Made by a program: the position numbers and the translations under genes. Shown piece after piece: positions 5,988 to 25,135 of a stretch of 33,850 nucleotides of DNA (positions within the stretch are counted from its first letter, which is position 1; every line of letters begins with the position of its first letter). The notes beneath the pieces were generated by a model. The model did not search any database, was not told the origin of the DNA, and saw only the letters and a list, made by a program, of their open reading frames with translations. Source of the DNA: Ignavibacteriota bacterium (lineage in GTDB: Bacteria; Bacteroidota; Ignavibacteria; Ignavibacteriales; Melioribacteraceae). The DNA is taken from contig PAAX01000016.1 of assembly GCA_002698995.1 (NCBI GenBank), positions 1-33,850 of the forward strand, written 5' to 3'.

Positions 5988-6296
5988 ATGGAAAGTAAAG
6001 ATGAATTAAGACTTTACTCTCTTAGCGAAGCTGCTAAGTTCTTGGGTATAAGTCGGATGACTCTTTCCAATTTAATAGATTGTGGTAAAATTGATTTTAT
6101 CAATTCCCCCACAGGAAAGCGAAAACAATTTACAGAAAAAATTCTGCGAAACTATTTAGAAAATCAAAAAAATCGATTGCCAGAACTTACCAGAAGAATG
6201 GAAGATGTGAAAGTTTCTAATTCTGGAATCTCTGAATTCGATTTAAATAAAATTTTCGATAAGATTAGATATGAGGTGCTAGATGCTAAAAAATAA
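5988..6296 (+). CDS. Excisionase-like MerR/HTH_17 DNA-binding protein
   Basis: 102 residues. Residues about 8-55 form a winged helix of the excisionase type: YSLSEAAKFLGISRMTLSNL followed by a wing around SPTGKRKQFTEKILRNYL. The gene overlaps the integrase start by 14 bases, so the two are translationally coupled, and the pair shares the promoter at 5860-5888. In such pairs the small protein bends DNA at the attachment site and directs excision or regulates the integrase. The C-terminal third is variable and not assigned. No clear Shine-Dalgarno precedes the ATG. Confidence 0.75.
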   Translation: MESKDELRLYSLSEAAKFLGISRMTLSNLIDCGKIDFINSPTGKRKQFTEKILRNYLENQKNRLPELTRRMEDVKVSNSGISEFDLNKIFDKIRYEVLDAKK

Positions 6297-7371
6297 TAGT
6301 AATAACATTTACGTAAATAAAGGTAAATACTATATTCGCTTTTATGATCCTACCGAGAGTAAATACAAATCAAAATCAACTGGATTATTGGCGATTAAAG
6401 AAAATTTAGGTTCTGCTATTGAAATAAGAGACAAATTTTTTGAAGAAATTAAGAAAATAAAAAAAGTACTTAATGAAACTAAAAATTCTTCGGAATCTAT
6501 TAGTGAGGCTAAAAAGCAATTTCTAAAAATTAATAACAATAAATCTGATAGCTCTAAGTGGTCTTACAACCAGATGTTTAGGCATCTAGAAACTATTATT
6601 AACTTTCAATCAAATTGTAATGCTCTGAATAAAATTAAATCCGAAGAATTTGTACTATATCTTAGGAATTTAGAGTTACAGCAGAATACAAAATTCAATC
6701 TATTCAAATCCTTTAAGAAGTTTTTGAATTTTCTTTTTGAGTATGATTATATTTATAGACACTTTAAAATCAATAAAGACGTAGCAATAAAGCAGGAAGT
6801 TAAACCTCCAGTTATATTTTCTGATAATGATATTGAGTTAATAATTAGTAATCTTAATCCTACAGCCAATGTTTATAAAGATAAATTTGGTTATTTTAGA
6901 AGCCCAAATAGCAATTTCATTACTGCAATTTTTGTTTTGTATTACACCGGGTTAAGACCTTCAGACTTTTTATATTGGAAAGTTTCTGATATTGATCTTA
7001 ATAATAGAACAGTAGCTTATCATTCCCCTAAAGTAAATACATATAATAACATCCCTTTGCACCCAAAGTTAATTCCAATCTTAAGAACTAGGATTTCTGA
7101 GGTTAACTCAGGTAGAATTTTTGAATATACTAATGAAAAAAATTTAGGGCATGCTTTCAAAAGATTTCTTAAGGCTTTAAATATTGATAGACCGGAATAT
7201 ACTCTCAGAACCTTTAGAAAACATTTTATATCTCTTATGCAAAAACAAAAAATGCCTATTACAATGGTTGCCAAGTTAGTTGGTCACAAAAAAATTGAAA
7301 CTACAAATAAATATTACACTTACTTTTCTACAGAGGATATGTCCAATGAATTAGAGAAAATCAAATTTTAA
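6283..7371 (+). CDS. Tyrosine recombinase / integrase
   Basis: 362 residues, with an N-terminal arm-binding region (about 1-80), a core-binding SAM-like domain (about 85-165) and a C-terminal catalytic domain. Catalytic residues visible: Arg225 (YTGLRPSDF), Lys250 (HSPK), the box II motif TLRTFRKH with Arg312 (the usual His at position -3 is Arg309), His335 (LVGHKK) and the likely nucleophile Tyr344. The missing box II His is an allowed variation in some integrases, so the enzyme is probably active. It overlaps the excisionase gene and ends just before a strong hairpin terminator. It lies about 17 kb from the tRNA-Asp att fragment in this window, which is unusual for a tRNA-targeting integrase. 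Confidence 0.9.
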   Translation: MLKNNSNNIYVNKGKYYIRFYDPTESKYKSKSTGLLAIKENLGSAIEIRDKFFEEIKKIKKVLNETKNSSESISEAKKQFLKINNNKSDSSKWSYNQMFRHLETIINFQSNCNALNKIKSEEFVLYLRNLELQQNTKFNLFKSFKKFLNFLFEYDYIYRHFKINKDVAIKQEVKPPVIFSDNDIELIISNLNPTANVYKDKFGYFRSPNSNFITAIFVLYYTGLRPSDFLYWKVSDIDLNNRTVAYHSPKVNTYNNIPLHPKLIPILRTRISEVNSGRIFEYTNEKNLGHAFKRFLKALNIDRPEYTLRTFRKHFISLMQKQKMPITMVAKLVGHKKIETTNKYYTYFSTEDMSNELEKIKF

Positions 7372-7375
7372 ATAT

Positions 7376-7402
7376 GCCGGAATTTAATTCCGGCTTTTTT
7401 TT
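7376..7402 (+). terminator. Rho-independent terminator after the integrase
   Basis: GCCGGAAT (7376-7383) and ATTCCGGC (7387-7394) with a TTA loop, followed by eight T. The loop is also the stop codon of the convergent recombinase-like gene. Confidence 0.85.
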
Positions 7403-7953
7403 ATGATTGAATAACATGCCGATCTTGATACATTTGTTACTTTTGCAATTTGATTAACCGATATACCAGCACTTCTTAATTCTAATATTTTTAGAACTGT
7501 ACTATGTTTTAATTCCGGCCTTCCTCTCCCTCTAGCATTAATAGTTTTTCTTTGTCGATAATTACAATTTTCATGTCTACCGTCAGAAATCAGCCTTAGC
7601 AGTTTAATAAAATTCTTCCCCCCTTTATTTCTTGTATCGATTTGATCTTTAATGGAAATAAATTCCTTATTATTATTTGCTATGATTTGAAAAATCTTTA
7701 TAAGTTCCTTAGGAATACTCATAAATCTTTCAAAACTCCAAATAATTAAAACATCAAAATCTCCTATCTGCATTCTTTTTATAAATTTTTTATACCCGGC
7801 TAGTGGATCTGTTAAATCATTTATTGGAACATCGAAATAATATCCGGACAATTCCATTTTCTCCTTCTCAATAAATTTTTCAATTGCATTAATCTGTTTA
7901 TAATAATGATTATTTGTCCTCTTAGCTGAATAATAATATATAGCTCTTAACAT
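7384..7953 (-). CDS. Degenerate serine recombinase (resolvase-like), probably catalytically dead
   Basis: 189 residues with the full resolvase layout: an N-terminal catalytic fold, a region resembling the E helix ending in ARGRGRP (about 140-146), and a C-terminal helix-turn-helix (ILELRSAGISVNQIAKVTNV). The active site is altered. Where resolvases have YxRVS, this protein has YYYSAKR, placing Lys11 at the nucleophile position (Ser9 is two residues away). The DRLxRS motif reads ERFMSI, keeping one Arg (76) and losing the second. It may therefore act as a DNA-binding regulator or be decaying. Start ATG 7953 has GGAGGT at good spacing, but that site lies in an inverted repeat. It follows the primase operon on the same strand. 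Confidence 0.7.
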   Translation of the reverse strand: MLRAIYYYSAKRTNNHYYKQINAIEKFIEKEKMELSGYYFDVPINDLTDPLAGYKKFIKRMQIGDFDVLIIWSFERFMSIPKELIKIFQIIANNNKEFISIKDQIDTRNKGGKNFIKLLRLISDGRHENCNYRQRKTINARGRGRPELKHSTVLKILELRSAGISVNQIAKVTNVSRSACYSIIKKSRN

Positions 7954-8774: not shown

Positions 8775-9065
8775 ATTTTTTTTTAATCCTCCTTTAATTT
8801 TTATTTTATAAGAATTTATTTTCGTTTTGGTTTTTCGCTTTAATGTATGGAAAGTATGGCAATAGTTAGATTTTACTCTATTTTTCAACTTTTCATACTC
8901 TAAAAATACGGCAGAAAGTGTGGCAAGAAGCCATACTTGCCACTGTTTTACTTTCTTCCTAGATATATTTTTATTCCTTTTATCCTCCTTCATTAATTTC
9001 ATTACTCTTTGACATACTTTTGGATAAATTTCTGACATACTTTTACTAACTCCAGACATAGTATT
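8760..9065. repeat. Iteron-like repeat cluster downstream of the primase gene
   Basis: Copies of AAGTATGKCA occur in both orientations: 8760-8769 (as TGACATACTT), 8852-8861, 8916-8925 (AAGTGTGGCA), 8929-8938, 9010-9019 and 9033-9042 (both TGACATACTT, 23 bases apart), with a degenerate copy at 9054-9063. GTGGCAAG (8920-8927) and CTTGCCAC (8936-8943) form a perfect inverted repeat. Repeats of this kind next to a primase-helicase suggest a replication origin, but they might instead be a regulatory array. Confidence 0.55.
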
Positions 9066-11616
9066 GTACATCCTTAGAATCTTGGGTTCTTACTCTTTTA
9101 GGTTGAATTCCATACTGCTTTAACATTTGTGTCAATTTGGTCAAGGTGCAGCTATAATCATTATTTATGTAGCAAAATATGCTTAGTGCCTCTCTCTTTT
9201 CGATTTTCTTCTCCTTAATGTTTACCCTATTTATTTCCGTCAACTGTTTAACTTCCATATTATCATCAAACCACTCCAAGTCTCCTGCTTTTAATCTTGT
9301 GGCAAATTTCTGATACTTGTTCATGCTAAGTTCCTTTATATCTTCCTTAGCTTGATTCTCAATTACAATATCAATTTTCTGCTCATCAATTTTGTAGTTA
9401 TGTAAGAACTGTGCAAAATTTGACAGCTCTTTTTTCATATCATTGATAAACTCATTAGGATTTGCTTTGAACGAATTAAGTCTTTTAAGAGGTCCGCCGG
9501 TTTCAATTATATTATATCTTCTATCCCCCTCCTCCAGCAATACCGGAAGTATCTCATTTGTAAAGAACATTACATTAGCAAGATTATCAGCTTCATATGT
9601 ATTTATATATTTTTGATTAATCAGAATTTTCTGTTCTGTAATTATGGCTTTTAGTTTTGATTTAACCCCTCTTCGTGAATCACTTGAATCATTACCAACT
9701 TCATTAAATGCAATAAATAATTTGTTTGTTATGAAACCGTTATAATCACTCTGGAGGCGGTCATCATCAACTACCATTGTTTGTTTTTCTCCAAATAATG
9801 GTCTTATAATCACTTCAAAGAACAAATTCTTTCCGGATCCTTGTGCTCCTTTGAAAACAAAGGCTGTTCTCATCTTCTCCCTTTTTGTAAAGGCATAAGC
9901 CAGCCAATTCAAAAAGTGTTCTAGTTCTTCTTTTACTGGTATTAAGTTCTTTATTAGTGAATAGATTCTCGGGCATTTTACATCCAGTTCAATCTTCTCA
10001 TCTGTTGGTTTCATCTGCATGTATTTTGTTGGACTAAATAGATTCAAAGTCTTTTCGTAGACTGAAAACCTTTCATCTATTTTGTGAGGGTCAAAGATTA
10101 CTCTAAATGCCGGAAGATTTTTTGGCAGCTCTAAGTTATGATCCACAAGTATATCTTTTAATACTTCTGTCTTTACTCCGGGATAAAATTCGTTTTCGCA
10201 GCTGTCGTAATATCCCCTTGAATTACTCGTCATATCGGTTATCGGGACTATTATCTGTTTTACTAATCTATTTACATCTACTTTCTTGTTCGCTTCAAGG
10301 GTTTTCTTAAAGTCATTAAATGATTTTCCGATTACATTTTTTACTATTTCAAATAGTTCTTTTAAGTATGACTCTTCAAAAGTTCTTCTCGAAAGCAAAT
10401 CAAACAGTTCTTCTTTTAGACTGTCTGTTTCAACCTTATTTGGATTTTTTTGTTTAGATACTATTTTTTTTAGTATCCATTTTATTCCGTCTTCAACTTC
10501 ATCGTTAAATAATTTTTTAAGTTCCTCAACTCCATTTTTCTTAAAATATTCATCGGGATCTTTTGTACCAATACCATATTTAACCGGATCGATTATATAC
10601 GGTTTGATTCTGCTTTCTCTTAAAATCATCTCTATTGCCTTTGCACTGTTTTCTGTCCCTACACCATCATTGTCAAAGGCAATAATTATATTTTTGATTT
10701 TGCGAAATATGGCACTACTCAAATGTTTTTCACCTAAACTACCTTGGCTTATTGCAGTGATATTACTGATTCCGGCTCTGCTTAAATAAACAGTATCCGG
10801 TATCCCTTCAACTATTATTATTGTTTCTTCTTTCCCTGGAACGTTGCTTAAACCAAATAAATCATCTTTATTTATGCCTGTGGAAGAATCCCATCTTACA
10901 TTTTTATTCTCTTTATTATCTTTCGTAACAATATTTAATCCATTAGATGAGCTTGCTCTCTTCATAAATCCAGTTATGTTTCCATTTGAATCTCTATATG
11001 GAATGGCTAATCTGAAATTATCCATATAGTGCCCTTGAAGAGTAAGCCGCACGATAGACATTTTTCTGTCAGGATATTTTTCTATTAAATAATCCTTTAT
11101 CTGTTTCTCTTTTGGAAAATATATCCATTCGGTTTGCTTGAGAATCTCAATATCGTATTTTCTTTCATTGACTAAATATTCTAAAGCTTCTTTTCCTTCT
11201 TCTTTGTAAAGGAGACTTTTTCCGTAGGTATATATTTCTTCAAATAATAAGCTTTTCTCAATCTTTTTTTGGGCCTCATCTTTTTCCTCATCCGTCAGTT
11301 CTTTTAGTTCATAGTTGAACTTTATTTGAGGTGAGAATTTATCCCTTAACCATTTAACTGCTTCACTGAATTCAACTTTCATAACAGCCATTACTAAGGA
11401 AATTACATCTCCCCCGGAATTGCAATTAAAACATTTATATAATTGTTTTTCAGTATCTAACTTAAAACATGCTCCGCTCTCACTCGCATGACCGGTTGGG
11501 CAGTTTCCTACATAAGTGTTTTTTGATTGTTTTTTTAGATTTGCGCCTAATAGGTTTGCTACTTGTAGTAATTCAGCGGCAGTCTTAATCGACTGCACTT
11601 TTTGTTTGTAATTCAT
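9046..11616 (-). CDS. Primase-helicase of a mobile element (CHC2 zinc finger, Toprim, SF3/D5-type helicase)
   Basis: 856 residues. Zinc-finger ligands are Cys39, His43, Cys62 and Cys65 (CPTGH ... CFNC). The Toprim primase core has Glu270 (IIIVEGIPD) and the DxD Asp315/Asp317 (IIAFDNDG). The helicase part has Walker A GAQGSGKN (590-597), Walker B LFIAFNE (633-639) and an arginine-finger segment EEGDRRYNII (about 695-704), as in D5/P4-type helicases. The C-terminal ~80 residues may be a winged helix. It would synthesise primers and unwind the origin for autonomous or post-excision replication. The start overlaps the upstream small gene by 32 bases, so the operon is tightly packed. A repeat cluster lies just downstream. 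Confidence 0.92.
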   Translation of the reverse strand: MNYKQKVQSIKTAAELLQVANLLGANLKKQSKNTYVGNCPTGHASESGACFKLDTEKQLYKCFNCNSGGDVISLVMAVMKVEFSEAVKWLRDKFSPQIKFNYELKELTDEEKDEAQKKIEKSLLFEEIYTYGKSLLYKEEGKEALEYLVNERKYDIEILKQTEWIYFPKEKQIKDYLIEKYPDRKMSIVRLTLQGHYMDNFRLAIPYRDSNGNITGFMKRASSSNGLNIVTKDNKENKNVRWDSSTGINKDDLFGLSNVPGKEETIIIVEGIPDTVYLSRAGISNITAISQGSLGEKHLSSAIFRKIKNIIIAFDNDGVGTENSAKAIEMILRESRIKPYIIDPVKYGIGTKDPDEYFKKNGVEELKKLFNDEVEDGIKWILKKIVSKQKNPNKVETDSLKEELFDLLSRRTFEESYLKELFEIVKNVIGKSFNDFKKTLEANKKVDVNRLVKQIIVPITDMTSNSRGYYDSCENEFYPGVKTEVLKDILVDHNLELPKNLPAFRVIFDPHKIDERFSVYEKTLNLFSPTKYMQMKPTDEKIELDVKCPRIYSLIKNLIPVKEELEHFLNWLAYAFTKREKMRTAFVFKGAQGSGKNLFFEVIIRPLFGEKQTMVVDDDRLQSDYNGFITNKLFIAFNEVGNDSSDSRRGVKSKLKAIITEQKILINQKYINTYEADNLANVMFFTNEILPVLLEEGDRRYNIIETGGPLKRLNSFKANPNEFINDMKKELSNFAQFLHNYKIDEQKIDIVIENQAKEDIKELSMNKYQKFATRLKAGDLEWFDDNMEVKQLTEINRVNIKEKKIEKREALSIFCYINNDYSCTLTKLTQMLKQYGIQPKRVRTQDSKDVQYYVWS

Positions 11617-14132: not shown

Positions 14133-14801
14133 CTACAACTCTAATTCCAGCAACTCGCCGTGTTGAGTTAACCATTTTTTTGCTTTTTTATAATTTGGTA
14201 CTTGCACGGAAACTATATTCCAAAAATCTTCGGAATGGTTTAATTCAATTAAGTGGGCGAGTTCGTGAACGATAATGTAATTAATTACATATAGCGGGGC
14301 TTTGACCAGCTTCCAATTGAGTGTTATTGACTTGTTAGGTGAACACGAACCCCAACTTGCCTTCATACTTTTTATATAAATACGATTGTATTTCACACCA
14401 AGAGTGTCTGAGTAGTAATCAACTATAGGCAAGAATTTTTTTTTTGCTTGGGCAAGATACCAAGCTTTGAATATTTCTTTGGTTTTGGATTTGTTTGATT
14501 TTGAAATTGTAAATTCATTATCAAAGCGTAAGCCGGAAAATTGTTCGTCTAATATTCTCAATTTATAATGTTCACCGAGATATAATAAGGATTCGCCGGA
14601 AACAAATTCCTTAGGAGAAGTAATCGGTTTAGATGAATTCGATAATTTATTATAGATCCAATGTTTTTTGCTGTTGACAACTTTAGCAACATCGTCCCTT
14701 GTCAAACGTTTAGGCGCACGAACAATAATTTTGGAGTTTCGATCAATAATAATATTGACCGATTTACGTTCCGTGAATATTATTTTATAATCTATTGTCA
14801 T
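14133..14801 (-). CDS. YgjP/WLM-type metallopeptidase (DUF45)
   Basis: 222 residues. The C-terminal half has the zinc site IIVHELAHLIELNHSEDFW: His179, Glu180 and His183 of HExxH plus His189 as third ligand, the arrangement of the YgjP-like family. Upstream is the conserved KASWGSCSPNKSITLNWKLV segment (about 147-166). The N-terminal part is a strand-rich domain. These proteins are very often encoded directly after hsdR in type I restriction loci, as here: the start overlaps the hsdR end by 17 bases. Its substrate is unknown; control of the restriction subunit by proteolysis is a possible, untested role. Confidence 0.88.
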   Translation of the reverse strand: MTIDYKIIFTERKSVNIIIDRNSKIIVRAPKRLTRDDVAKVVNSKKHWIYNKLSNSSKPITSPKEFVSGESLLYLGEHYKLRILDEQFSGLRFDNEFTISKSNKSKTKEIFKAWYLAQAKKKFLPIVDYYSDTLGVKYNRIYIKSMKASWGSCSPNKSITLNWKLVKAPLYVINYIIVHELAHLIELNHSEDFWNIVSVQVPNYKKAKKWLTQHGELLELEL

Positions 14802-17800
14802 TTACTATCGAATCGTTTTTATAACGTGCTACTTCAAGAATTCTTGTTGTGATTTCTTTATATTTTTCAAATATATTAGGGAGCTGAACAAATCTTTCAT
14901 TTAATAATAATTTTTGGATTTCGGCTTTTAATTTATTTTGTGAGGGTATGCTATCCCAAAAGCCAACTGTTTTTAATTCATTGTTCAACAAGACATATAA
15001 ATTTTGTGTAAGATCAACAGCGGATGAAATTTCGTCTTCACTCAATTCTTTGTCATTGTATAACTCTCTTTTAAAGATACGGAAGAAGGGCATTTGGGTT
15101 GTGCGATTTAGGCCATAGGTTTCTTCCTTTTCTTTATTTCGGATCTTTTCGCGAAGTTTTTCTAATTCTTCATAGATTTTATTCCAATCACCTTTGAATT
15201 TTTCAAATATTTCTGCAAGCATCTCAGAAAAAGTTTTAAACAATTCAGGATCATCCTCAGCACCAACATCAATATAGTGACGTAGAGCGTGTTCAATTTC
15301 AGCAGCCTTAGTTTTTGTACGCTTACGAGTTTTAACATTTTCATAAAACTCACTGTCAAGAATTGAAATAGGTTTAACTTTTTGATTAATTCCTTTTGAA
15401 TTTAGGTATTCATCTGTAATACTTCTTAATTTTTCCGGAATACCCCGCATACTTAATCTTGAATCTTGAAGGTGTTTTGAGCAAAGAAGATTAACTTCAA
15501 CAAACCGTTGATAATCCATTAAGTAATCCAATGCTTTGGGATGTGGAAGAACTTTATTAAATGCTGCTGAAAGTTTCTTAAAAAGATTTAAGTATTCGAA
15601 CCGAATATCTTCGTCATAAAAGAGATCAAAGAATGCATCGGGATCATTAAAATCAGTACATTCATATTTTTTTAGGAATTCCCAAATTTGAGTATGGAGC
15701 TGAATTAATTCATTAATTTCTGCTTCATTATTACTCAGCGAATCAACAATTTCTTTTTGTTCTCTTTCCGCATAGGAATCGAGAGCTTGCTTTATATGAT
15801 GACCGATACCGATGTAATCAATAACATAACCAACATCTTTGCCTTCGGGACCGATACGATTAACACGCGCAATTGCTTGAAGTAAATTATGATCTCTAAC
15901 GTATCTATCAAGATACATAACTTGTTCAACCGGAGCATCAAAGCCGGTAATAAGCATTTCATTGACAATAATGATTCCAATGTTTCCATCAAGATCATTT
16001 TCTACTTTTTCAAAAGATAATTTGAATCTCCTTATTTGGGTTTTATGACTATCGGAATTAGTATATGGATTAAAACGAGGCTTATCATTGTGGCTGTGAG
16101 AAATAATAACCGCTGTTTCTATTTTTTTTAATAGTTCGATATTAATCCTATGCGGATTATGTTTTTCTAATTTTTCAATAAACTTTGGAAGTAATTCTTC
16201 GATTGCTTCTTTATAACGAATAGCTGCTTCACGAGAAACCGCAACAATCTGAGCTTTGAGTCGGTTGGGGAAAACAAAATTAATATAATGCTCAAGCATA
16301 TCTTCAGCTTTGGATTTTATAGTTGGCACAGCTTCCAGATAAGCTTCTCTTGAACCATAACCCAAAATTCTCATACGTTCTGCTAAATTATATTCACTAA
16401 AAACATCTTGAAATTTTATATCCATTCCTTCGGGATTTGGCACCTCAGCATTATGGGTTCTGCCTTCGTAAACGATTTTCAGAGTAGTACCATCATCAAT
16501 AGATTGACGCATTGTGTATTTATCAATGTACTCTCCAAAGTGTTGTTCGGTTAAGTCTATCGGTGTACCGGTATAAGCGATATGAGTGGCGTTGGGTAAA
16601 GCACGGCGAAGATTAGCTCCTAATAAACTATATTGAGTTCGATGGGCTTCATCTGTCATAACAAGGATATTTGGAGAAGGATTTAATTCAGGGAATATAC
16701 TTTCTAATTCACGCTGTTGGAATTTATGAATCATACCCATAACAAGATCGGGAGCGGGAGACGATAAAAGTTCTTGAAGTTTATTAATACTATATGCTCT
16801 TTTAACGGTATACCCAATACTGTCACTTGTTTCAGAAAGTTGTTCTTCAAGCTGATTTCGATCAGTAATAAAGACAACTTTCCAAGGAAGGAGTTCTTGG
16901 TATTTCCGCATTTCACGTACCATAAACATCATTGTAAGCGATTTACCAGAACCTTGAGTATGCCAAATTATACCGCCTCTTTCGCGTGCATTTCTGCCGT
17001 CAATTAATCTGCGGATAGATTTTTTAACTGCACGATATTGCTGGTAACGGGTAACAATTTTTATTGTATTGCCTTTGTCGTCTGTTGTAAAAATTGTAAA
17101 AGAACGGATTAGTTCAATAAAATTTCTTTTTGTGAGCATACCGGCAATTAGACGCTGCTGGTCATTTGGCGACGTGCCTTCTCTGGTTTGAATTTCGTCA
17201 AGCGTTTTAGGATATGGGTCAGTCCATCTGAAAAAGTACTTTTCTGTATGGGTTGAGATTGTGCCGAATTTGGCAATCTGTCGATCAGTAACAATTGTAA
17301 ACTGATTATAATAAAAAAGAATTTGATTGCCTTCCATTCCCTCGCTGCGCTGCTGTGAATAACGCATCAACTGATCAATAGCTTCGCCGATTGAATCTTT
17401 TACTTTTGGTGACTTACATTCAACAACAACGAGAGGAAGACCGTTTACAAATAAAATAATGTCCGGGATAATGTGATTCTCTGTACCGGGAATGCGAAGC
17501 TTGAATTGTGAAATTGCGAGATAACTGTTTTTTGTTTCATCATAAAGATCGATGAATTTTACAGAAGGACTATCTTCGCCGGTTAATTCATTGCGGGAAA
17601 CTGTTGTTCCTTTTAGAAGAAACTCAAGTACTTCTTGGTTATTTTCAATAAGATTACCGTCAAGTGTAATCGGTAATTTTTGAATAACTTCGGTTATCTG
17701 CGATTCTGTTAAAAAAGGATTGAGATTTTTTAGCGCTATTCTTATGTTCTCCTCAATGAAAACTTCACTGAAACTTTTACGTCTGCTGTGATGAGGTTCT

Positions 17801-17940
17801 TGATGATTATCGAGAACAAGAATATCCCAGCCTTGTTGTTCAAGTTGTTCGAGGAAAGGTTGTTCGACGTGGCGTCTTTCATCCAGTTTGAGAGATTTGG
17901 CTATATCACCTTTGTACTTATTGTCGTTTGAGAGAATCAT
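14785..17940 (-). CDS. hsdR: Type I restriction enzyme R subunit (HsdR)
   Basis: 1051 residues, the usual length. The N-terminal nuclease domain has a PD-(D/E)xK site: IIPDIILF (Asp160) and VVVECKSP (Glu174, Lys176). The translocase has Walker A HTQGSGKS (327-334), the DEAH box MTDEAHR (430-433), and AYTGTPID as motif III-like segment, then GFDAPVEQVMYLDR and ARVNRIGPEGKD as late SF2 motifs. The C-terminal ~300 residues are helical and contact the methylase core. All key motifs are intact, so restriction is probably functional. It follows the DUF262 gene by 15 bases and overlaps the metallopeptidase gene. Confidence 0.96.
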   Translation of the reverse strand: MILSNDNKYKGDIAKSLKLDERRHVEQPFLEQLEQQGWDILVLDNHQEPHHSRRKSFSEVFIEENIRIALKNLNPFLTESQITEVIQKLPITLDGNLIENNQEVLEFLLKGTTVSRNELTGEDSPSVKFIDLYDETKNSYLAISQFKLRIPGTENHIIPDIILFVNGLPLVVVECKSPKVKDSIGEAIDQLMRYSQQRSEGMEGNQILFYYNQFTIVTDRQIAKFGTISTHTEKYFFRWTDPYPKTLDEIQTREGTSPNDQQRLIAGMLTKRNFIELIRSFTIFTTDDKGNTIKIVTRYQQYRAVKKSIRRLIDGRNARERGGIIWHTQGSGKSLTMMFMVREMRKYQELLPWKVVFITDRNQLEEQLSETSDSIGYTVKRAYSINKLQELLSSPAPDLVMGMIHKFQQRELESIFPELNPSPNILVMTDEAHRTQYSLLGANLRRALPNATHIAYTGTPIDLTEQHFGEYIDKYTMRQSIDDGTTLKIVYEGRTHNAEVPNPEGMDIKFQDVFSEYNLAERMRILGYGSREAYLEAVPTIKSKAEDMLEHYINFVFPNRLKAQIVAVSREAAIRYKEAIEELLPKFIEKLEKHNPHRINIELLKKIETAVIISHSHNDKPRFNPYTNSDSHKTQIRRFKLSFEKVENDLDGNIGIIIVNEMLITGFDAPVEQVMYLDRYVRDHNLLQAIARVNRIGPEGKDVGYVIDYIGIGHHIKQALDSYAEREQKEIVDSLSNNEAEINELIQLHTQIWEFLKKYECTDFNDPDAFFDLFYDEDIRFEYLNLFKKLSAAFNKVLPHPKALDYLMDYQRFVEVNLLCSKHLQDSRLSMRGIPEKLRSITDEYLNSKGINQKVKPISILDSEFYENVKTRKRTKTKAAEIEHALRHYIDVGAEDDPELFKTFSEMLAEIFEKFKGDWNKIYEELEKLREKIRNKEKEETYGLNRTTQMPFFRIFKRELYNDKELSEDEISSAVDLTQNLYVLLNNELKTVGFWDSIPSQNKLKAEIQKLLLNERFVQLPNIFEKYKEITTRILEVARYKNDSIVNDNRL

Positions 17941-17955
17941 TATTATTGTCTGTTT

Positions 17956-19731
17956 TTATTGAGAAATCAATTGGTCTATCTCTTCTTCAGTTTTAACAAT
18001 ATTATACATTTTAAATAATTTTTTAAGAACTATTTTATGATTTGTTTCCAAATCACTGAGCTGCCAAGTCGGGAAATCATTCCAAATACGAATTGAATTG
18101 CTAAATAATTCGACATTTCCACTAAAATATCTTGAGCGTTTTGTTGCATAATCTAAATTACTTAGTGAAGAATTTTTTCTTCTTGATATTAAAACTAAGT
18201 TACCAATTTTGTTGGTCCAGAATTCGCGATCATTCTCAGAAAAGTCTGTGACCCAGACGCTATTTTCTTTAGGATTCTGAGGCAAGATATGCTCAATACT
18301 AATTTTTTCGGGTGGATCAAATGGAGTTGTATCACCGTGAATATTGTGATCAATTTTAAGTATAAGGTATTTAGCATATTTTCTACCATAAATGGACACA
18401 TTAATAATACGAACTAAATCTTGAGATTCATATTTTAACAAATCACTATTGAGAATATCATTGAGATCGTTTGAGTCCTCAATAACTTTAATCAATTTAT
18501 TCATATTTTCTAAACGAGTAGTAAAAGTTTGAGATGTTATCCAGTCAGAAGAGAATTTATTGTCCAATAAGTTTACAAAATCTAAAAGTGATGTTTCGGA
18601 ATGCTTATTATAAAATGCTAATAGTGGCGGTATCCAAAAATCAGCCTCGAAACCAGATCTCATCAGTCTAAGTTTGTTCTTAAGTGGTAAATTATTCTTT
18701 AGTATTTCGCTATCAATATCAAAAAGATCTTTGTAATGCTTGAAGTATTTTTCTATAAACTTAAATGTATCCTTTCCTTTTCTGAGCAGTGGGCTCGTAA
18801 AATGATATGTTTTGTTCGTTCTGTCATAGGTTCTTGGTTTATAGATGTTTTCTTCATATTCTTTTAACAAATTATAGCTTGCTTTATTTTTAACTAGAAT
18901 TGTTCTTAAGTGAGATAAGAAGCTGTCAAAGTCCTCCCCGAAATATTCTTCAATTTTTTCCCAGCTTTTTGCTAAAATAACTCTGTCGCTTTCGGGCTCA
19001 ACATTCTTGAGGTTTTCTGCTTTTAGAATATCACTATTACGTAGTTTGATACCGCGATTATTCATAACCGTAAATAAATGGAAAGCATCCTCCAAGTCTT
19101 CAGAGGCTACATAAATTAGGAGTACTTTTGTACGTAAGTACTTATAAAAGTCATCAATTGAAGTGCCGTTGTTAAAAAACTCCTTAATTGTTAAGATTGC
19201 CTTTGACATATTCTTAATTGAAATATCTCCATTTTTATCACTTGCAAATCTCTTAAGAACTTCATCATCATCGGTCCCTTTCCACTGTTTAATATGGTTA
19301 TAAACAAAGTTTTTAACTTCGTCTCTTATATCAAACACTATCCTCATTCTTTCAGGCTTATTATTATCTATGTCTTCTTGAACATAAATAGCTTCGCTAG
19401 TTGTTTGAAAACGTTTAGAAGTAGGATCGGTTACTGAATCACGAATAACCGCGTGAATAAGAAAGAGTGTAGTCAATCTTTGTTGACCATCAAGTAAATC
19501 GTATTCAGTAAACTCAAGATTTGATTCACTTTTTTCATTTTTACGTAATACTAAAGAACCTAGAAAATATTCCGCATCGGGATTAACTGCATTTGCATCG
19601 GCGATGTCGGTAAGTAATTCAGTTACTTGGTCATCTTCCCAGACATAAGGTCGTTGATATTCTGGAATGCGGTACCATTTTTCAAATACATCTTGTATAA
19701 AAAGTTTACCACTTTCAATAGGATTTGACAT
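17956..19731 (-). CDS. DUF262/DUF1524 protein (GmrSD-type nuclease family)
   Basis: 591 residues. The DUF262 (ParB/sulfiredoxin-like NTPase) part shows IPEYQRPYVW (22-31) and DLLDGQQRLTTL (78-89). The C-terminal DUF1524 His-Asn-His-like nuclease part has ISIEHILPQN (477-486) and NKIGNLVLISRRKNSSLSN (507-525). This is the architecture of fused GmrS-GmrD type IV restriction enzymes, which cut modified DNA using nucleotide hydrolysis. It lies between hsdS and hsdR with a good AAGGAG site, so it is probably co-transcribed with the type I system. Whether it acts alone or modulates the type I enzyme cannot be told. Both domains look complete. Confidence 0.88.
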   Translation of the reverse strand: MSNPIESGKLFIQDVFEKWYRIPEYQRPYVWEDDQVTELLTDIADANAVNPDAEYFLGSLVLRKNEKSESNLEFTEYDLLDGQQRLTTLFLIHAVIRDSVTDPTSKRFQTTSEAIYVQEDIDNNKPERMRIVFDIRDEVKNFVYNHIKQWKGTDDDEVLKRFASDKNGDISIKNMSKAILTIKEFFNNGTSIDDFYKYLRTKVLLIYVASEDLEDAFHLFTVMNNRGIKLRNSDILKAENLKNVEPESDRVILAKSWEKIEEYFGEDFDSFLSHLRTILVKNKASYNLLKEYEENIYKPRTYDRTNKTYHFTSPLLRKGKDTFKFIEKYFKHYKDLFDIDSEILKNNLPLKNKLRLMRSGFEADFWIPPLLAFYNKHSETSLLDFVNLLDNKFSSDWITSQTFTTRLENMNKLIKVIEDSNDLNDILNSDLLKYESQDLVRIINVSIYGRKYAKYLILKIDHNIHGDTTPFDPPEKISIEHILPQNPKENSVWVTDFSENDREFWTNKIGNLVLISRRKNSSLSNLDYATKRSRYFSGNVELFSNSIRIWNDFPTWQLSDLETNHKIVLKKLFKMYNIVKTEEEIDQLISQ

Positions 19732-19770: not shown

Positions 19771-21057
19771 TTACGTATTTAGTATGCTGTTTATTTCCTC
19801 TATCAATTCTTCCGGTACTCTTACTTTGCCGGTTAGTAAGTCTTGCATTAGACCGGATTTGAGAAGCGATAATTTTGATAGACTTTTGTAGTTACTGTTC
19901 AGAAAATCGTCTATTTGATTTAATTTTTTTATTATTTCTTCTTGTTCATTAATGCCAGTATAAATCACGTTAATTGTTTTCAAAATTCTTAATGAGAGAC
20001 CCGCTCTTCCAGAGCCCGATGAAATTGATCTAAGTTCTTCATACCTAAAATCTAGTTGATGATATAGAAAATAAGAATTATATAATTTTTGATCAGGAAT
20101 AATAGCAGCAATTGATTGATTTGATGTTGTCTCTATTTCAGTAATTGCAACTGTACCTCTAGTTTTGCCTTGTCCGGCTAAAGCAATAAGAACTGAACCA
20201 ATTGGATAAAATCTTGCGTTGGAGTTTTCGAAGCCTAACTGGGTAATTTTGACAGCAGTATTTTTAATTTTTTTATTATGCACTTCGCCGGAAGATAACC
20301 AAGGAATATTTCCATTTTCCCAATATTCTTTTTTAGCTGTAGAAGGTGTACCGCCGGTAGCTAATTCGAAATACTTCCTATTTTCTAAACTAATTAACTC
20401 CCACTCAACGGGGATTCTGCCGAGGGGACTGTCTTTAAATTTATGAGTTTTTTCTGAGCGGATGTTCCCGTTTTCATCTATACCTCTTGTGAGAAGGTCT
20501 TGCATTAAGCCGATTTTAATGCGTTTGTATTTTGCAATTAGTTTTTCTGTCTTTTCTATTGCTTTATCAACTGTTGAAAGGATGTGGGCTATGGCGGTTT
20601 GTTCTTCAAATTTAGCCGGGTAGTCTAATTCTATTTTACAAATATCTTTTTTGGATATTTCACTGAACGTTGTACCATTTCCAAAAGTCAATAGTGAATT
20701 TAGATTTTGGGCTATAAGGTAAAAGAAAAAAAGTGGAGACTTTTCTGAGTTAAATACGAGTGTTTTACAACCTTGATTTGTTGAGGCCGGTACTTTATTT
20801 ATTGCAAGATATCCAATAGGGGCGCGAGTAGAAATGACAAGGGATAATGGTGGAAATAGTTTTGCTGAACTAAATTCAAGACCATCTTCTGTTATTTTTC
20901 TTGCTGAATCAGATATAAACGGTGTATTCAGCTTATTCAAATCATTGGGCGTAATCCAAACAATATCCCCTTCCCAAAATTCAGAATTATTAGTATTTGG
21001 TGTTCCGCCGGAAACAACTTGCCCTATTTCATCAATGCGATTATGCTGCCAATTCAT
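19771..21057 (-). CDS. hsdS: Type I specificity subunit (HsdS)
   Basis: 428 residues with two tandem half-subunits. Each target-recognition domain begins with a similar segment: VVSGGTPNTNNSEFWEGDIV near residue 14 and LATGGTPSTAKKEYWENGNI near 230. Each is followed by a conserved helical spacer that ends in LMQDLLTRG (central) and LMQDLLTGK (C-terminal). The two domains would read the two halves of a split DNA target. The repeated spacers are also where recombination can swap domains. The gene follows hsdM by four bases. Its site sequence cannot be predicted from this alone. Confidence 0.95.
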   Translation of the reverse strand: MNWQHNRIDEIGQVVSGGTPNTNNSEFWEGDIVWITPNDLNKLNTPFISDSARKITEDGLEFSSAKLFPPLSLVISTRAPIGYLAINKVPASTNQGCKTLVFNSEKSPLFFFYLIAQNLNSLLTFGNGTTFSEISKKDICKIELDYPAKFEEQTAIAHILSTVDKAIEKTEKLIAKYKRIKIGLMQDLLTRGIDENGNIRSEKTHKFKDSPLGRIPVEWELISLENRKYFELATGGTPSTAKKEYWENGNIPWLSSGEVHNKKIKNTAVKITQLGFENSNARFYPIGSVLIALAGQGKTRGTVAITEIETTSNQSIAAIIPDQKLYNSYFLYHQLDFRYEELRSISSGSGRAGLSLRILKTINVIYTGINEQEEIIKKLNQIDDFLNSNYKSLSKLSLLKSGLMQDLLTGKVRVPEELIEEINSILNT

Positions 21058-21061
21058 TTTT

Positions 21062-23761
21062 TCAACTAATATAGTTAAGTGATTTTAGATAATTAGTTAA
21101 TTCTAAGAGGTTATCGTCACGTTCTTTTTTTATTTTTTCTGAACTGATACTGTATTTCTCAAAAAGATTTTCAAAGAAATCAATAACTATTCTTTTTTCG
21201 GCATTCATATAGCGTAAAAGCTGCTCAGATATAAGATCATTATGTTTTTTAAGTATAAGCTCTTTTGCCTCTTCCCTTGTAATTAATCCGCCAATGCTGT
21301 CAAACAAAGATTGAAGGCTATCAATTTTATTTTGTAATGTGGTTTTATCTCTGTTAAGCGCATTTCTTTTGCGTGTTTCAGATTCCGGCAGTTCAGCTAA
21401 TTCTTTATCCGCAGCATCAATAAGATTTTGGTATTCTGCATTTTTCTCATCAATTCCGAATCGTTTCAAGTCAATTTTAATTGAGAGTTCTTCTTCTTTT
21501 TCGGCTAACTCTTTTTTGGAATCTTTTATTTCTTTTTCAATATCTTTTATTTTTTTGAGAGCTTCTTCAAATGGTTCTTTGTCATCGTCTTTTTCTACCT
21601 CATCAATTGTAAACTTAAGCTGGTCACGCATTAATTTAGCGGTAAGCTTTTCTCCTTCATCGAGCTCATATTCTAAAAGAGTTTGTGTTTCATCGAGTAT
21701 TTCTTCCAGTCGGCTTTCGGCATTTGAAATTTTAGATTCAATTTCATTAATATATTTTTGCTCATCGGTAAAGAAGTGGTTAATCATATATTCGTCAGGT
21801 ATAAGTCCGGGAAACCAGCCGTTGCTTTGGATAGTTTTAAGATCGTATTTAATGTTATCCCACCAATTAACAAACACACCGGCAATCTGGAATTCATTAA
21901 GAACATTGAAAAGCACAAGCTGATCTTTAAGGGATGTAATAAGTTTATTGCGAACTTCGGGAATCTTTTTACCGTTTGTTGTGAGATAACCGGAAATTCC
22001 TTCGTGAACTTCTCCATCTTTTACTGCGGGTTCAAGTGAAGCAAAATCATCTTTAGCGGACTGCCACCAATTATTCATATGACTTTTCATTTCGGAAAAT
22101 ATCTTATTAAGGTTTTGATTTTCTTCAATAACAGATTTGATCTTTTCTCTCGAATCTATCATTTCGAGAAAATCATAGTATTGATCATCTTTGTTCTCAA
22201 ATAAAAACGAAGGCTCAAGACCAAACTTTGTGAAGATAATATCTTTCGATAGAACTTCGGATTTTGGAACACCGCCAATTAAGTGCGCTCTTACGTCTTC
22301 CGGTTCCGGCTCGGGAGTGTTATCAACATAACGGCGGATATTCAGATTATAATCATTGGATTCAATTTCGGTTAAATCAACAAGCCGGGAATATTTTTCT
22401 ACTTCGAGTTTGTTTGTGAAAACATAATCGATTTTTTCAATGTCTTCAGGTCGAAGAGAATTCTGATTTTTCCCTTCCGCATATTCCGCATCGGCATTAA
22501 TGAAAAATACTTTATTTCTAAGTTCATCTGGCTTACTTTTATTAATAATAATAATGCAAGCGGGGATGCCGGTTCCGTAAAACAACGAAGGAGGCAAACT
22601 GATTATGCCTTCGATTAAATCGTTTGTTATCAATTTAGTTCTAATTGCCTTTTCTTTGCTTCCTCTGAAAAGAACCCCGTGCGGCATTACAACAGCAACT
22701 TTACCGTTGGGTTTACAGCTTGAAATCATATGCAGAACAAACATAAGATCGGCTTTCTTACCTTTTTCGGGAGCGTATTCATAACCGGCAAAGCGTTCGG
22801 TATGCTGCATATTATCGCGGCTGTAATTCTGTGAGAATGGCGGATTGGCAAGTACACGGTCGAATTGTTTTATTCTGCCGTCAGCAATATTTTGCGGATC
22901 GGTTAAAGTATCGCCGTATTCAATATTGTATTTTGTGATGTTATGGAGAATAATGTTCATCTTACAAATTGCCAGTACAGTGGGATCGAGTTCTTGTCCG
23001 TGCAGATCAACATTTTCGTAATTAGCGCCTTGCTCTTGGATATACTGAAAAGACTGAATAAGCATACCGCCGGAACCGGCAGTAGGATCGTAGATGCTCA
23101 TTCCCTCTTGCGGTTTAAGAATTTGCACCATTAACCGAACAACTTGATAAGGAGTATAAAACTGACCTCCTTTCTTACCGGCGCTGTCCGCAAAGAATTT
23201 AATTAAATACTCGTAAGCAGCACCGAGCAAATCGGGGAATTCAAAGTTATCATTTAGTAAGGGTGGAAAGTTTGTAAAGTGATCGATCAGGTCTTTGAGA
23301 TCACGATCTTTGAGAATTTTTTTGTTATCTATTTCTTTGTTAAAATCAATTCTTTTTTTAAGCACACCGGTTAAAGCTTCATTCGATTCTTCAAGTGCGG
23401 CAAGAGCTTTGTTAAGCATTTCACCGATATTTTCGTGAAGGTCTTTTATTGCAGGTTGCTGATTTCCATTGTCGTCAATGAAACCATCATACCAGCGAGC
23501 ACGATCAGGTACATAAAAGACGGGATAGTAATTATCTTTGTCCTTTAGTAATTCAGTTAATTTATTTTTATCCTTAATATGCTTAAAAGTAGATTCAGTC
23601 AGTTCTTTTCTTTTTTCATAGAAAACGTCCGACATTCTTTTAAGGAACAGCATACCGAAAATATATTCTTTGTATTCGGAAGCATCCATTTTGCTGCGAA
23701 GAATATCGCAGGCTTTGAGTAAAAAAGATTCGAGTTGAGAAAGTGAGATTTTAGATCGCAT
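21062..23761 (-). CDS. hsdM: Type I adenine-N6 methyltransferase (HsdM) with a long C-terminal extension
   Basis: 899 residues. N-terminal HsdM helical domain (1-170), then the N6-adenine methylase with SAM motif [10 protein letters not shown] (225-233) and catalytic motif IV ANPPF (305-309). The core ends near residue 480. Typical HsdM proteins are about 500-550 residues; here some 350 more follow, including a Trp-rich segment ([21 protein letters not shown]) and a Glu/Lys coiled coil (about 690-850). This extension may help assemble the subunits. First gene of the island operon; a possible promoter lies at 23842-23871. Its 5' end is about 420 bases from the tRNA-Asp fragment. Confidence 0.95.
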
Positions 23762-24178
23762 GAAAATAAAAACCTTAGAGAATGAGTCGCTAATTTATTA
23801 GTCAATTTCGTGAACAAATGCTTAATATTTTTTGAGTAGCTAAAATACAAATAAATACAATTTTAAGTCAAATTCACTGAAATCCGTCTATGGTCAAATT
23901 TACGTCAAAGCAACTAGTAGTCTGAATACCCTTTTCAATTGATTGCTCAACTATAATATAAATAAGTAAAAGGAAGTTTAATGTAAAATTAATTACTGAA
24001 TTTAACTAATCGACTCCTTAAATTAAACTAACAATATTTTGATAGCCAAACAAAAATTTTAATACTTTACAATTTCATTTTGTTGAGGTAACAAAATTGA
24101 AGTCAATTTAAAGCATTTTATGACAAAATTACCTTTATTTTGAGCTAAAATCGTAATATTAGTTTAAATTTCGACCTT
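23762..24178. other. 417-bp AT-rich gap between hsdM and the att site
   Basis: Contains a possible minus-strand hsdM promoter (TTGACT, 18 bases, TATTTT). No gene, no 5' half of a tRNA and no clear repeat are visible. The first ~240 bases left of the att site are AT-rich and featureless, as expected of element DNA next to a junction. Confidence 0.5.
23842..23871 (-). promoter_or_regulatory. Possible hsdM operon promoter
   Basis: TTGACT (23871-23866), 18-base spacer, TATTTT (23847-23842), about 80 bases before ATG 23761. The -10 is poor, so this is tentative. Confidence 0.35.
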
Positions 24179-24220
24179 CTGTCACGCAGGAGGTCGCGAG
24201 TTCGAGTCTCGTCGGCCCCG
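24179..24220 (+). other. 3' fragment of tRNA-Asp(GUC): attachment site at the element end
   Basis: From the anticodon loop CTGTCAC (anticodon GTC, 24181-24183) the sequence continues as GCAGG, variable loop, a T arm with GTTCGAGTC, an acceptor strand CGGCCCC and discriminator G (24220), all as in tRNA-Asp. No D arm, 5' acceptor or matching 5' anticodon stem precedes it: the five bases before the loop (ACCTT) do not pair with GCAGG. Loss of homology at the anticodon loop is a known breakpoint for tyrosine integrases. The intact gene should be at the other end of the element, left of the window. CCA is not encoded. Confidence 0.85.
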
Positions 24221-24225
24221 CAATA

Positions 24226-24262
24226 AAAAGCCCGAAATCTTAACGAAATCGGGCTTTTTTGT
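24226..24262 (+). terminator. Rho-independent terminator of the original tRNA-Asp gene
   Basis: AAGCCCGA (24228-24235) pairs with TCGGGCTT (24249-24256), then a T-run. It was left on the chromosomal side when the element inserted. Confidence 0.85.
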
Positions 24263-24544
24263 TTCCTCTCTTATCTCATGTCGAACGGTATAACACTTTT
24301 TATATAGTAGTTTGTCAATTTCTTTCGCAGTGATTTTTCTTTAGTAGTTTCATTTTTATCCTATTAATAATAAGAAGCATTCAATATTTTACTTGGCCCT
24401 AATGCTTTACTTTCATATTTGATCTCTAATAGAGAGTTTTTTAGATATAACAGTATAATTTGTTTTTTGAAATAATATATTGATTTACAAAAATCTTTTT
24501 GATTGAAAAAATTAATGAATTCGGAGTAAGTAGAAGGTCATAGT

Positions 24545-25135
24545 ATGGATGGATATGAATTATTACTAAACCACTTTAAGAAAGACGTTAAGTTAAGTCC
24601 TAAAGAAGAAAAACTTATAGCAGATTCTTTCTCAATTATGAAGTTCAAAAAGAATGAAATAATCCTCTCAGCCGGGGAAATTTCATCACACATGCGCTTT
24701 GTAGTTGAAGGATGCTTGAAATCATTCTATTTGAATGAAGACGGAAAGGAGCATATTGTTCATTTCGGTATAGAGGGCTGGTGGATAAATGATTTATACA
24801 GCTATTTCACTGCCACTCCTTCAACACAATACATACAGGCAATTGAAAATGGAATATTTTTGCAAGCTCCTAAAGAGAAATTGGATGAATTATTTGACAG
24901 TTCTCACTCGATTGAAAGATTTTTCCGGTTGAAATTTCAAAATGCTTATGTCGCTTTTATTGACAGAACCGTAAACTCTTTGAGTAAAACCGCTGAAGTG
25001 CGATATGCGGAATTCTGCGAAAAGTACCCCGAAATAGAACAATGTGTTCCCCAGTATACTCTCGCCTCCTACCTTGGCATCACCCCCGAGTTTTTGAGTG
25101 TTTTAAGAAAAAGACAACTTAAGAGACGATCTTAA
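24545..25135 (+). CDS. Crp/Fnr-family transcriptional regulator
   Basis: 196 residues: a cyclic-nucleotide-binding-like beta barrel (about 20-120, with MRFVVEGCLKSFYLNEDGKE) and a short C-terminal helix-turn-helix (YTLASYLGITPEFLSVLRKR). The cAMP phosphate-binding motif of true CRP is absent and there are no N-terminal Fnr cysteines, so the ligand is unknown. This is the common short type in Bacteroidota-like genomes. The gene is 76 bases before the cyclase gene on the same strand and may control that cluster; this is inferred from position only. Confidence 0.88.
   Translation: MDGYELLLNHFKKDVKLSPKEEKLIADSFSIMKFKKNEIILSAGEISSHMRFVVEGCLKSFYLNEDGKEHIVHFGIEGWWINDLYSYFTATPSTQYIQAIENGIFLQAPKEKLDELFDSSHSIERFFRLKFQNAYVAFIDRTVNSLSKTAEVRYAEFCEKYPEIEQCVPQYTLASYLGITPEFLSVLRKRQLKRRS

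Follow-up and report, generated by a model that had tools for sequence, protein, structure and literature searches.

The integration scheme invoked below is the established one for islands in tRNA genes, and both tandem tRNA islands and attachment within the anticodon loop are known. In the available portion of the Islander article, many islands (2083 of 3919) use the anticodon-loop subsite, a tandem array is recognised by the fragment and integrase that each island has of its own, and Table 1 gives 125 tandems of two or more islands and 4 of three or more (PMC4383910). The array that we describe here, in genome G000, is a strong example of this arrangement. As in the Islander tandems, to judge from the same portion of that article, each island has a displaced tDNA fragment and an integrase, and the site is in the anticodon loop, as it often is among Islander islands; set against the tandems listed there, the G000 array comprises three complete elements and a probable fourth (PMC4383910). 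The elements are named E1 to E4, counted from the intact tRNA gene outwards.

Like lambda-type integrases, those of E2 and E3 possess SAM-like and catalytic domains, and an N domain of beta-beta-beta-alpha form is predicted for a relative, L144. They differ from lambda-type integrases in that one core site is common to integrases with different arm repeats. A further comparison concerns phages of Oenococcus oeni, which we take to belong to another phylum than G000. For the oenophage integrases IntF and IntB-F, the authors' proposal is that integrases with unlike N-termini recognise different arm direct repeats, N-terminus and repeats coevolving; the available part of their account gives no base-to-residue correspondence (PMC8074189). 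In the E2/E3 integrase family, as is proposed in that part for IntF and IntB-F, the N-terminus and the arm repeats may vary together.

The window analysed here is the whole of contig C21 (33,850 bases) of G000, a draft assembly from an environmental bacterium, of 4.23 Mb in 36 contigs, that is 99.99% complete. Bases 24179–24221 of the window are the 3′ half of a tRNA-Asp(GTC); they begin with the first base of the anticodon loop and reach the 3′ end. The shared piece extends one base beyond 24220, giving a core of 43 bases. A 17-mer from the fragment, with up to 3 mismatches allowed, occurs once in the window (mean of 0.00 in 100 shuffles), and ARAGORN calls no tRNA there. Whole-genome BLAST with the fragment revealed four further copies, all on contig C4 (E 1.8e-20 to 1.2e-16). 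A 23-mer within the fragment is present exactly five times in G000, once on C21 and four times on C4, and no sixth copy was found in the genome with up to 3 mismatches. One of the C4 copies is the intact tRNA-Asp(GTC) gene at C4:130585–130658, recognised by both ARAGORN and the Rfam model; ARAGORN, run on 33 tRNA or BLAST loci of a genome with 42 Rfam tRNA matches, called no second tRNA-Asp. The other three are fragments at 92.1, 40.9 and 10.6 kb, and all four C4 copies share a single orientation.

The five copies are identical in extent, running from CTGTC, which begins with the first base of the seven-base anticodon loop, to the end of the tRNA; the copy at 92 kb has one base different. Upstream of CTGTC, the four non-intact copies, cut at one common base, are preceded by other sequence. 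The sequence-only reading had taken the window piece for a tRNA-Asp 3′ fragment at the right end of an integrated element, broken in the anticodon loop and with probably acquired sequence to its left, and these observations bear it out on all three points; the complete tRNA-Asp sharing the piece, whose existence it had proposed to check, is the C4 gene (BLAST, ARAGORN and Rfam). Its statement that the tRNA terminator follows stands only in part: a terminator-like hairpin follows each of the five copies, but its sequence differs between most of them, so the hairpin in the window need not be the original terminator of the tRNA.

When C4 is read in reverse and followed by C21, the order is phosphofructokinase (PFK) gene, intact tRNA-Asp, E1, fragment, E2, fragment, E3, fragment, E4 and the window fragment. 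E1, E2 and E3 measure 38.6, 51.2 and 30.3 kb, and E4, which contains the contig gap, at least 34.8 kb. The PFK gene lies upstream of the intact C4 gene as it does in relatives (matched by tblastn in 24 of 30 tRNA-Asp loci, own locus counted), and since it adjoins tRNA-Asp there too, the intact copy is at the native site. All displaced 3′ fragments are oriented like the intact gene, that of C21 by way of the inferred join. Integrase genes are present in every interval, on C4 at 129 kb (E1), 41.5 kb (E2) and 11.2 and 14.6 kb (E3) and in the window (E4), such that each of the four elements has its own fragment and integrase, those of E4 lying across the contig gap. In E1, E2 and E3 an integrase is located within 1 kb of one end, whereas some 17 kb separate the window integrase from its scar. 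A row of some four mobile elements has thus very probably entered one tRNA-Asp gene, the piece in the window being the scar at the far end.

Gene content was scanned for part of each element's genes. E1 encodes a phage portal, a P2-type capsid and a glycosyl hydrolase 108, which identify it as a prophage. E2, a metabolic-cargo island, carries an ABC1 kinase, an aminotransferase and a myo-inositol-phosphate synthase next to a primase, and E3, a defence island, a type III restriction system, a TIR protein and AbiLi/AriA-like and LmuB-like proteins. The C4 part of E4 encodes a COOH.NH2 ligase, an ABC transporter set and a GHKL ATPase with a Shedu C-terminal domain; its window part encodes an HTH protein, integrase, resolvase, primase and hsdRSM with a GmrSD gene (Table 1). 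Within the type I restriction cluster, it is the GmrSD-type gene that separates hsdR from hsdS.

Table 1. Features of the window around and to the left of the tRNA-Asp scar.
Feature	Position	Strand	Remarks
Small HTH_17 protein, excisionase-like	5988..6296	+	Adjoins the integrase; role suggested by its size and position
Tyrosine integrase (PF00589), candidate E4 integrase	6283..7371	+	Domain match
Serine recombinase (Resolvase)	7384..7953	-	Domain match
Primase-helicase (DnaG zinc ribbon, Toprim, DUF5906)	9046..11616	-	Domain set is that of the E2 primase
YgjP-like metallopeptidase	14133..14801	-	
HsdR, type I restriction subunit	14785..17940	-	
GmrSD-type protein in hsd cluster	17956..19731	-	
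HsdS specificity subunit	19771..21057	-	
HsdM methylase, last E4 gene ahead of the scar	21062..23761	-	
GGTAACAAA, E4 right-end arm-type repeat	24087..24095	+	Matches E4 left-end repeats, C4 about 10.3–10.5 kb
tRNA-Asp 3′ half, attR core of E4	24179..24221	+	Five genome copies
Terminator-like hairpin and T run after the fragment	24226..24262	+	Seen in the sequence; unlike the hairpins after the C4 copies
TATAACACTTTTTATA, probable relic of E1-type left-end arm repeat	24289..24304	+	Right of the scar
cNMP-binding (Crp-type) regulator, first gene right of the scar	24545..25135	+	G019 conservation starts here

Just inside both ends of each element are short repeats that are distinct for each: TATAACAC in E1, TGTACCCA in E2, TGTACCGA in E3 and GGTAACAAA in E4, the last occurring two or more times at the left end and once at the right. 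From their place and form, these repeats would be arm-type sites of the integrases, and each set is probably read by the integrase of its own element, which would thereby act on that element; arm differences between neighbouring elements were read by eye. Left and right ends of 18 elements from 13 genomes were compared by their shared 9-mers (in 7 of the 18 end pairs, that of E4 included, the ends are on different contigs and the pairing is assumed). Own ends share 9-mers in 17 of the 18 elements, the exception being that of G073, whose ends are on different contigs, and 89 of 306 non-own pairs share them, many within one integrase family. The own-pair score of 49 compares with a permutation mean of 12.5 and a maximum of 33, and none of 20,000 permutations reaches it. 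In G105, an element that carries E1-type repeats at its left and right ends encodes an integrase 62% identical to the E1 enzyme.

The tRNA-Asp loci of relatives (33 loci, 16 intact and 17 classed as fragments, among which L085 is cut by a contig end) have a like layout with other repeats again, and their fragments are cut at the G000 break point or a few bases from it. When the order was searched for tandem E4-type repeats, the sole exact match was the own locus, and four other genomes gave one match each with a single mismatch. The reversed pattern, used as a control, gave 12 matches, and E4-type arms are therefore not traceable in relatives.

Immediately to the right of the fragment, the sequence cannot plainly be taken for native chromosome. 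TATAACACTTTTTATA contains the only TATAACAC in the 33,850 bases of the window, and this 16-mer is found at a nearly equal offset in the left ends of E1 and of the G105 and G022 elements (E 0.008–0.009). The first 320 bases or so to the right of the scar have nothing in common with G019, the nearest relative found, whereas from 24544 onwards 5.2 kb match it at 79%. This block encodes a regulator, a cyclase, an epimerase, a nitroreductase, an exporter, an acetyltransferase and a DUF4386 protein; its G019 counterpart lies 34 kb upstream of tRNA-Asp and is no chromosome edge beside that tRNA gene, and the G019 sequence that precedes the Crp-type gene corresponds to contig C31 in G000. Judging by the repeat and its offset, a relic of a fifth element, probably of E1 type, is likely to lie in these bases. 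The alternative, plain chromosome in which the 16-mer arose by chance, is consistent with the metabolic genes that come next, with the lack of any convincing E1 protein to the right of the scar (best E 0.091) and with the lack of a clear further tRNA fragment there, the best att-like score being 11 (+ strand) against 8–10 in ten shuffles and far below that of a full copy. We nevertheless regard it as doubtful, since the repeat is unique in the window and sits at an E1-type left-end offset, and since conservation with G019 begins only some 320 bases from the scar.

Contigs C4 and C21 most likely join within E4. The main evidence is that the two E4 ends, although on different contigs, match each other best, with 7 nine-mers in common (including GGTAACAAA) and at most 2 in common with any other end tested; the matched repeats and the orientation point the same way. 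If the contigs were not joined, the scar would be the right end of some other element at another place, or what we call E4 would be two elements, with a further scar in the gap. In favour of this, no bridge over the gap was found in the draft assembly and the integrase is far from both ends; the orientation is right, however, the end repeats match, and DNA and pattern searches gave a single intact tRNA-Asp and no sixth piece, which makes such a separation improbable. With C4 and C21 joined, the intact tRNA-Asp lies to the left of the window in the reconstructed order, as the sequence-only reading had expected, along a route that crosses the C21–C4 assembly gap and thus depends on the inferred join. 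The element to the left of the fragment is indeed integrated, but four stand in tandem between the intact gene and the fragment where that reading saw one, so the direct partner of the fragment is the copy at C4:10.6 kb and not the intact gene.

That the fragments are instead decayed tRNA-Asp duplicates, produced by tandem duplication with loss of 5′ halves and never attachment sites, finds some resonance in the palindrome-bearing tRNA-Asp relics of relatives, some of them in rows (G035, G019 and G043), but is highly improbable for four nearly exact fragments that are cut at one base and lie 30–51 kb from one another. A hairpin follows each fragment, element-specific repeats flank it, and every interval contains integrase genes.

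In all probability, then, E4 integrated site-specifically at tRNA-Asp and left the attR core in the window, and four elements now lie between the intact gene and this scar. This is the best explanation of the five copies, their common break point, the conserved PFK–tRNA-Asp site, the integrases in four intervals and the matched end repeats. In the proposed mechanism, a tyrosine integrase would recombine the attP of the element with the tRNA-Asp gene, with strand exchange in the anticodon loop. The incoming element would bring a tRNA 3′ half of its own and rebuild an intact tRNA-Asp at its left end, whereas the old 3′ half would be pushed to the right end as a scar, represented for E4 by the window fragment. 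The rebuilt gene would still be a valid target, and later elements would stack beside it. Because it can be hit again, the elements nearest to the intact gene would be the latest, from which we infer the order of arrival; E4, farthest from it, is probably the oldest of the four. The window integrase may have moved E4, as its location within the element suggests, and its relatives are situated beside or within tRNA-Asp elements in G019, G056, G009 and G152.

We surveyed 164 genomes of the order with a 28-mer, allowing at most one mismatch. The 28-mer is present in 124 of the genomes; 108 of these have a single copy (flanks were read for part of them) and 16 have two or more, with the largest number in G000. 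No close strain without the array was found among the 164. G043 has two intact tRNA-Asp genes, and not every second copy therefore need be a scar; these two copies (L110, L111) are 27 kb apart, each followed by palindrome-bearing relics. Some tRNA-Asp relics of relatives carry a TCCCG...CGGGA palindrome, which takes the place of the T-loop segment at 9 of 63 loci and of the anticodon arm at 7. Relics of this kind occur at L057, L069, L078, L081, L110, L071, L086 and L109, some in rows, although several of these loci overlap and have one genome in common. The palindrome looks like a small mobile sequence settling in tRNA relics. Within G000, a tRNA match at C4:148467–148553 is about 1 kb from another integrase (C4:149587–150042), and a further island is probably present on the left side of the PFK gene, at about 148.5–150 kb. 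An integrase at C16:155488 is near tRNA-Thr, and a short integrase piece at C15:219166, below the Pfam cut-off, is near tRNA-Lys; these are likely to mark additional tRNA islands.

The integrases of E2 and E3 combine a PF00589 catalytic domain with a PF13102 SAM-like core-binding domain, and genes of this family often start beside anticodon-loop fragments of various tRNAs. An integrase start is present at 58 loci; the motif places 9 of these at tRNA-Asp, and the other tRNAs were read from the sequence by eye. Two GTAnnnA repeats about 11 bases apart often lie between the gene and the core. Our code set comprises 35 integrases with a called triplet, out of 41 that passed an N-domain filter (L216 has no call, and the triplets of L158, L160 and L204 come from ambiguous or single repeats). 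In this set, C at base 2 is accompanied by Lys25 in 9 of 10 cases and G by Thr or Ser25 in 25 of 25; Thr16 is matched by G at base 1 in 9 of 9, and proteins lacking Thr16 never have G there; and G at base 3 goes with Lys9 in 26 of 26, whereas among the 9 with C or T, Arg occupies position 9 in 5. The training exception is L161, with Ser25 and CCT. We lean, with moderate confidence, towards a swappable N-terminal module with a code in GTAnnnA, in which base 1 would correspond to residue 16 (G where this is Thr), base 2 to residue 25 (C where this is Lys, G where it is Thr or Ser) and base 3 to residue 9 or 10–11, domain and repeats switching together while the catalytic domain and the core site stay. 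The code is drawn from the E2/E3 family; the window integrase belongs to another branch.

For a tree of the proteins, residues 1–62 were removed; its 37 rows are the code set of 35 and two with hand-called triplets. A minimum of 17 triplet changes falls on this tree, and the triplet tends to follow the N-terminal residues and not the phylogeny of the remaining protein. Where independent pairs are separated by supported branches, base 2 and Lys25 change in the same direction in 6 cases, in opposite directions in 0 and with no difference in 1 (sign test, p 0.03); for base 1 and Thr16 the counts are 4, 0 and 0, too few for a test. A 46-row tree that includes nine held-out loci fitting the rule as a whole or in one repeat, and leaves out the misses, yields 5, 0 and 1 for base 2 and 4, 0 and 0 for base 1, and a 52-row tree with the misses gives 6.8, 0 and 1.2 of 8 (p 0.016) and 4, 0 and 1 of 5. 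Crossed residue–base controls show a trend in none of the three trees. Some of the rows also belong to the set that gave rise to the rule, so the trees are no independent test of the residues.

The rule was fixed before held-out loci were fetched. Of 40 stretches, 8 encoded proteins that were already in use and were removed; of the 32 left, 15 were scored, having a prediction and either a GTAnnnA pair or a single GTAnnnA near the gene; 13 others had no usable repeat or prediction. Eight of the 15 are fully right: L228, L230, L243 and L261 at all three positions, L237 and L255 at the first two, and L231 and L233 at the third only. Two (L229 and L265) are right in one of two repeats, and five (L242, L246, L251, L256 and L263) are missed; counting a lone GTAnnnA farther from the gene adds three misses (L252, L253 and L258) and one hit (L262). 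Several hits are accounted for by TGG, the commonest triplet, and Lys25 is present in just two scored loci, a hit (L255) and a miss (L263). The outcome supports the rule within the close family, not beyond it. In the left ends of G019, G023 and G150, both CCG and CCC repeats are present, so strict separation fails there.

The predicted structure of L144 (mean pLDDT 84, pTM 0.58) has strands 14–19 and 22–27 as a likely hairpin, in which residues 16 and 25 would face each other. Full-length lambda Int (1z1b) is the top Foldseek match of the model (TM 0.59), in a loose whole-length fit with an rmsd of 19.1 over 354 columns, which indicates that the domains are set differently from those of lambda Int. 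A sequence search of solved structures gives matches that start at query position 56 and cover the core-binding and catalytic domains only. The predicted fold, together with repeats at both ends, fits an E2/E3 N domain that would bind arms in a lambda-like manner. In the available portions of the open-access literature, we found no base-level rule relating an integrase N-terminus to its arm repeat, and the residue-to-base rule, if real, may be new to the literature.

What appeared as a single scar is thus the end of an ordered stack at one tRNA gene, in which a prophage is followed by metabolic, defence and restriction islands, at a tRNA-Asp site that is used repeatedly across a bacterial order. 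If the arm code is true, related elements could share one tRNA gene without moving each other, and it would provide a testable rule for how integrases are kept separate and for predicting arm sites from protein sequence.
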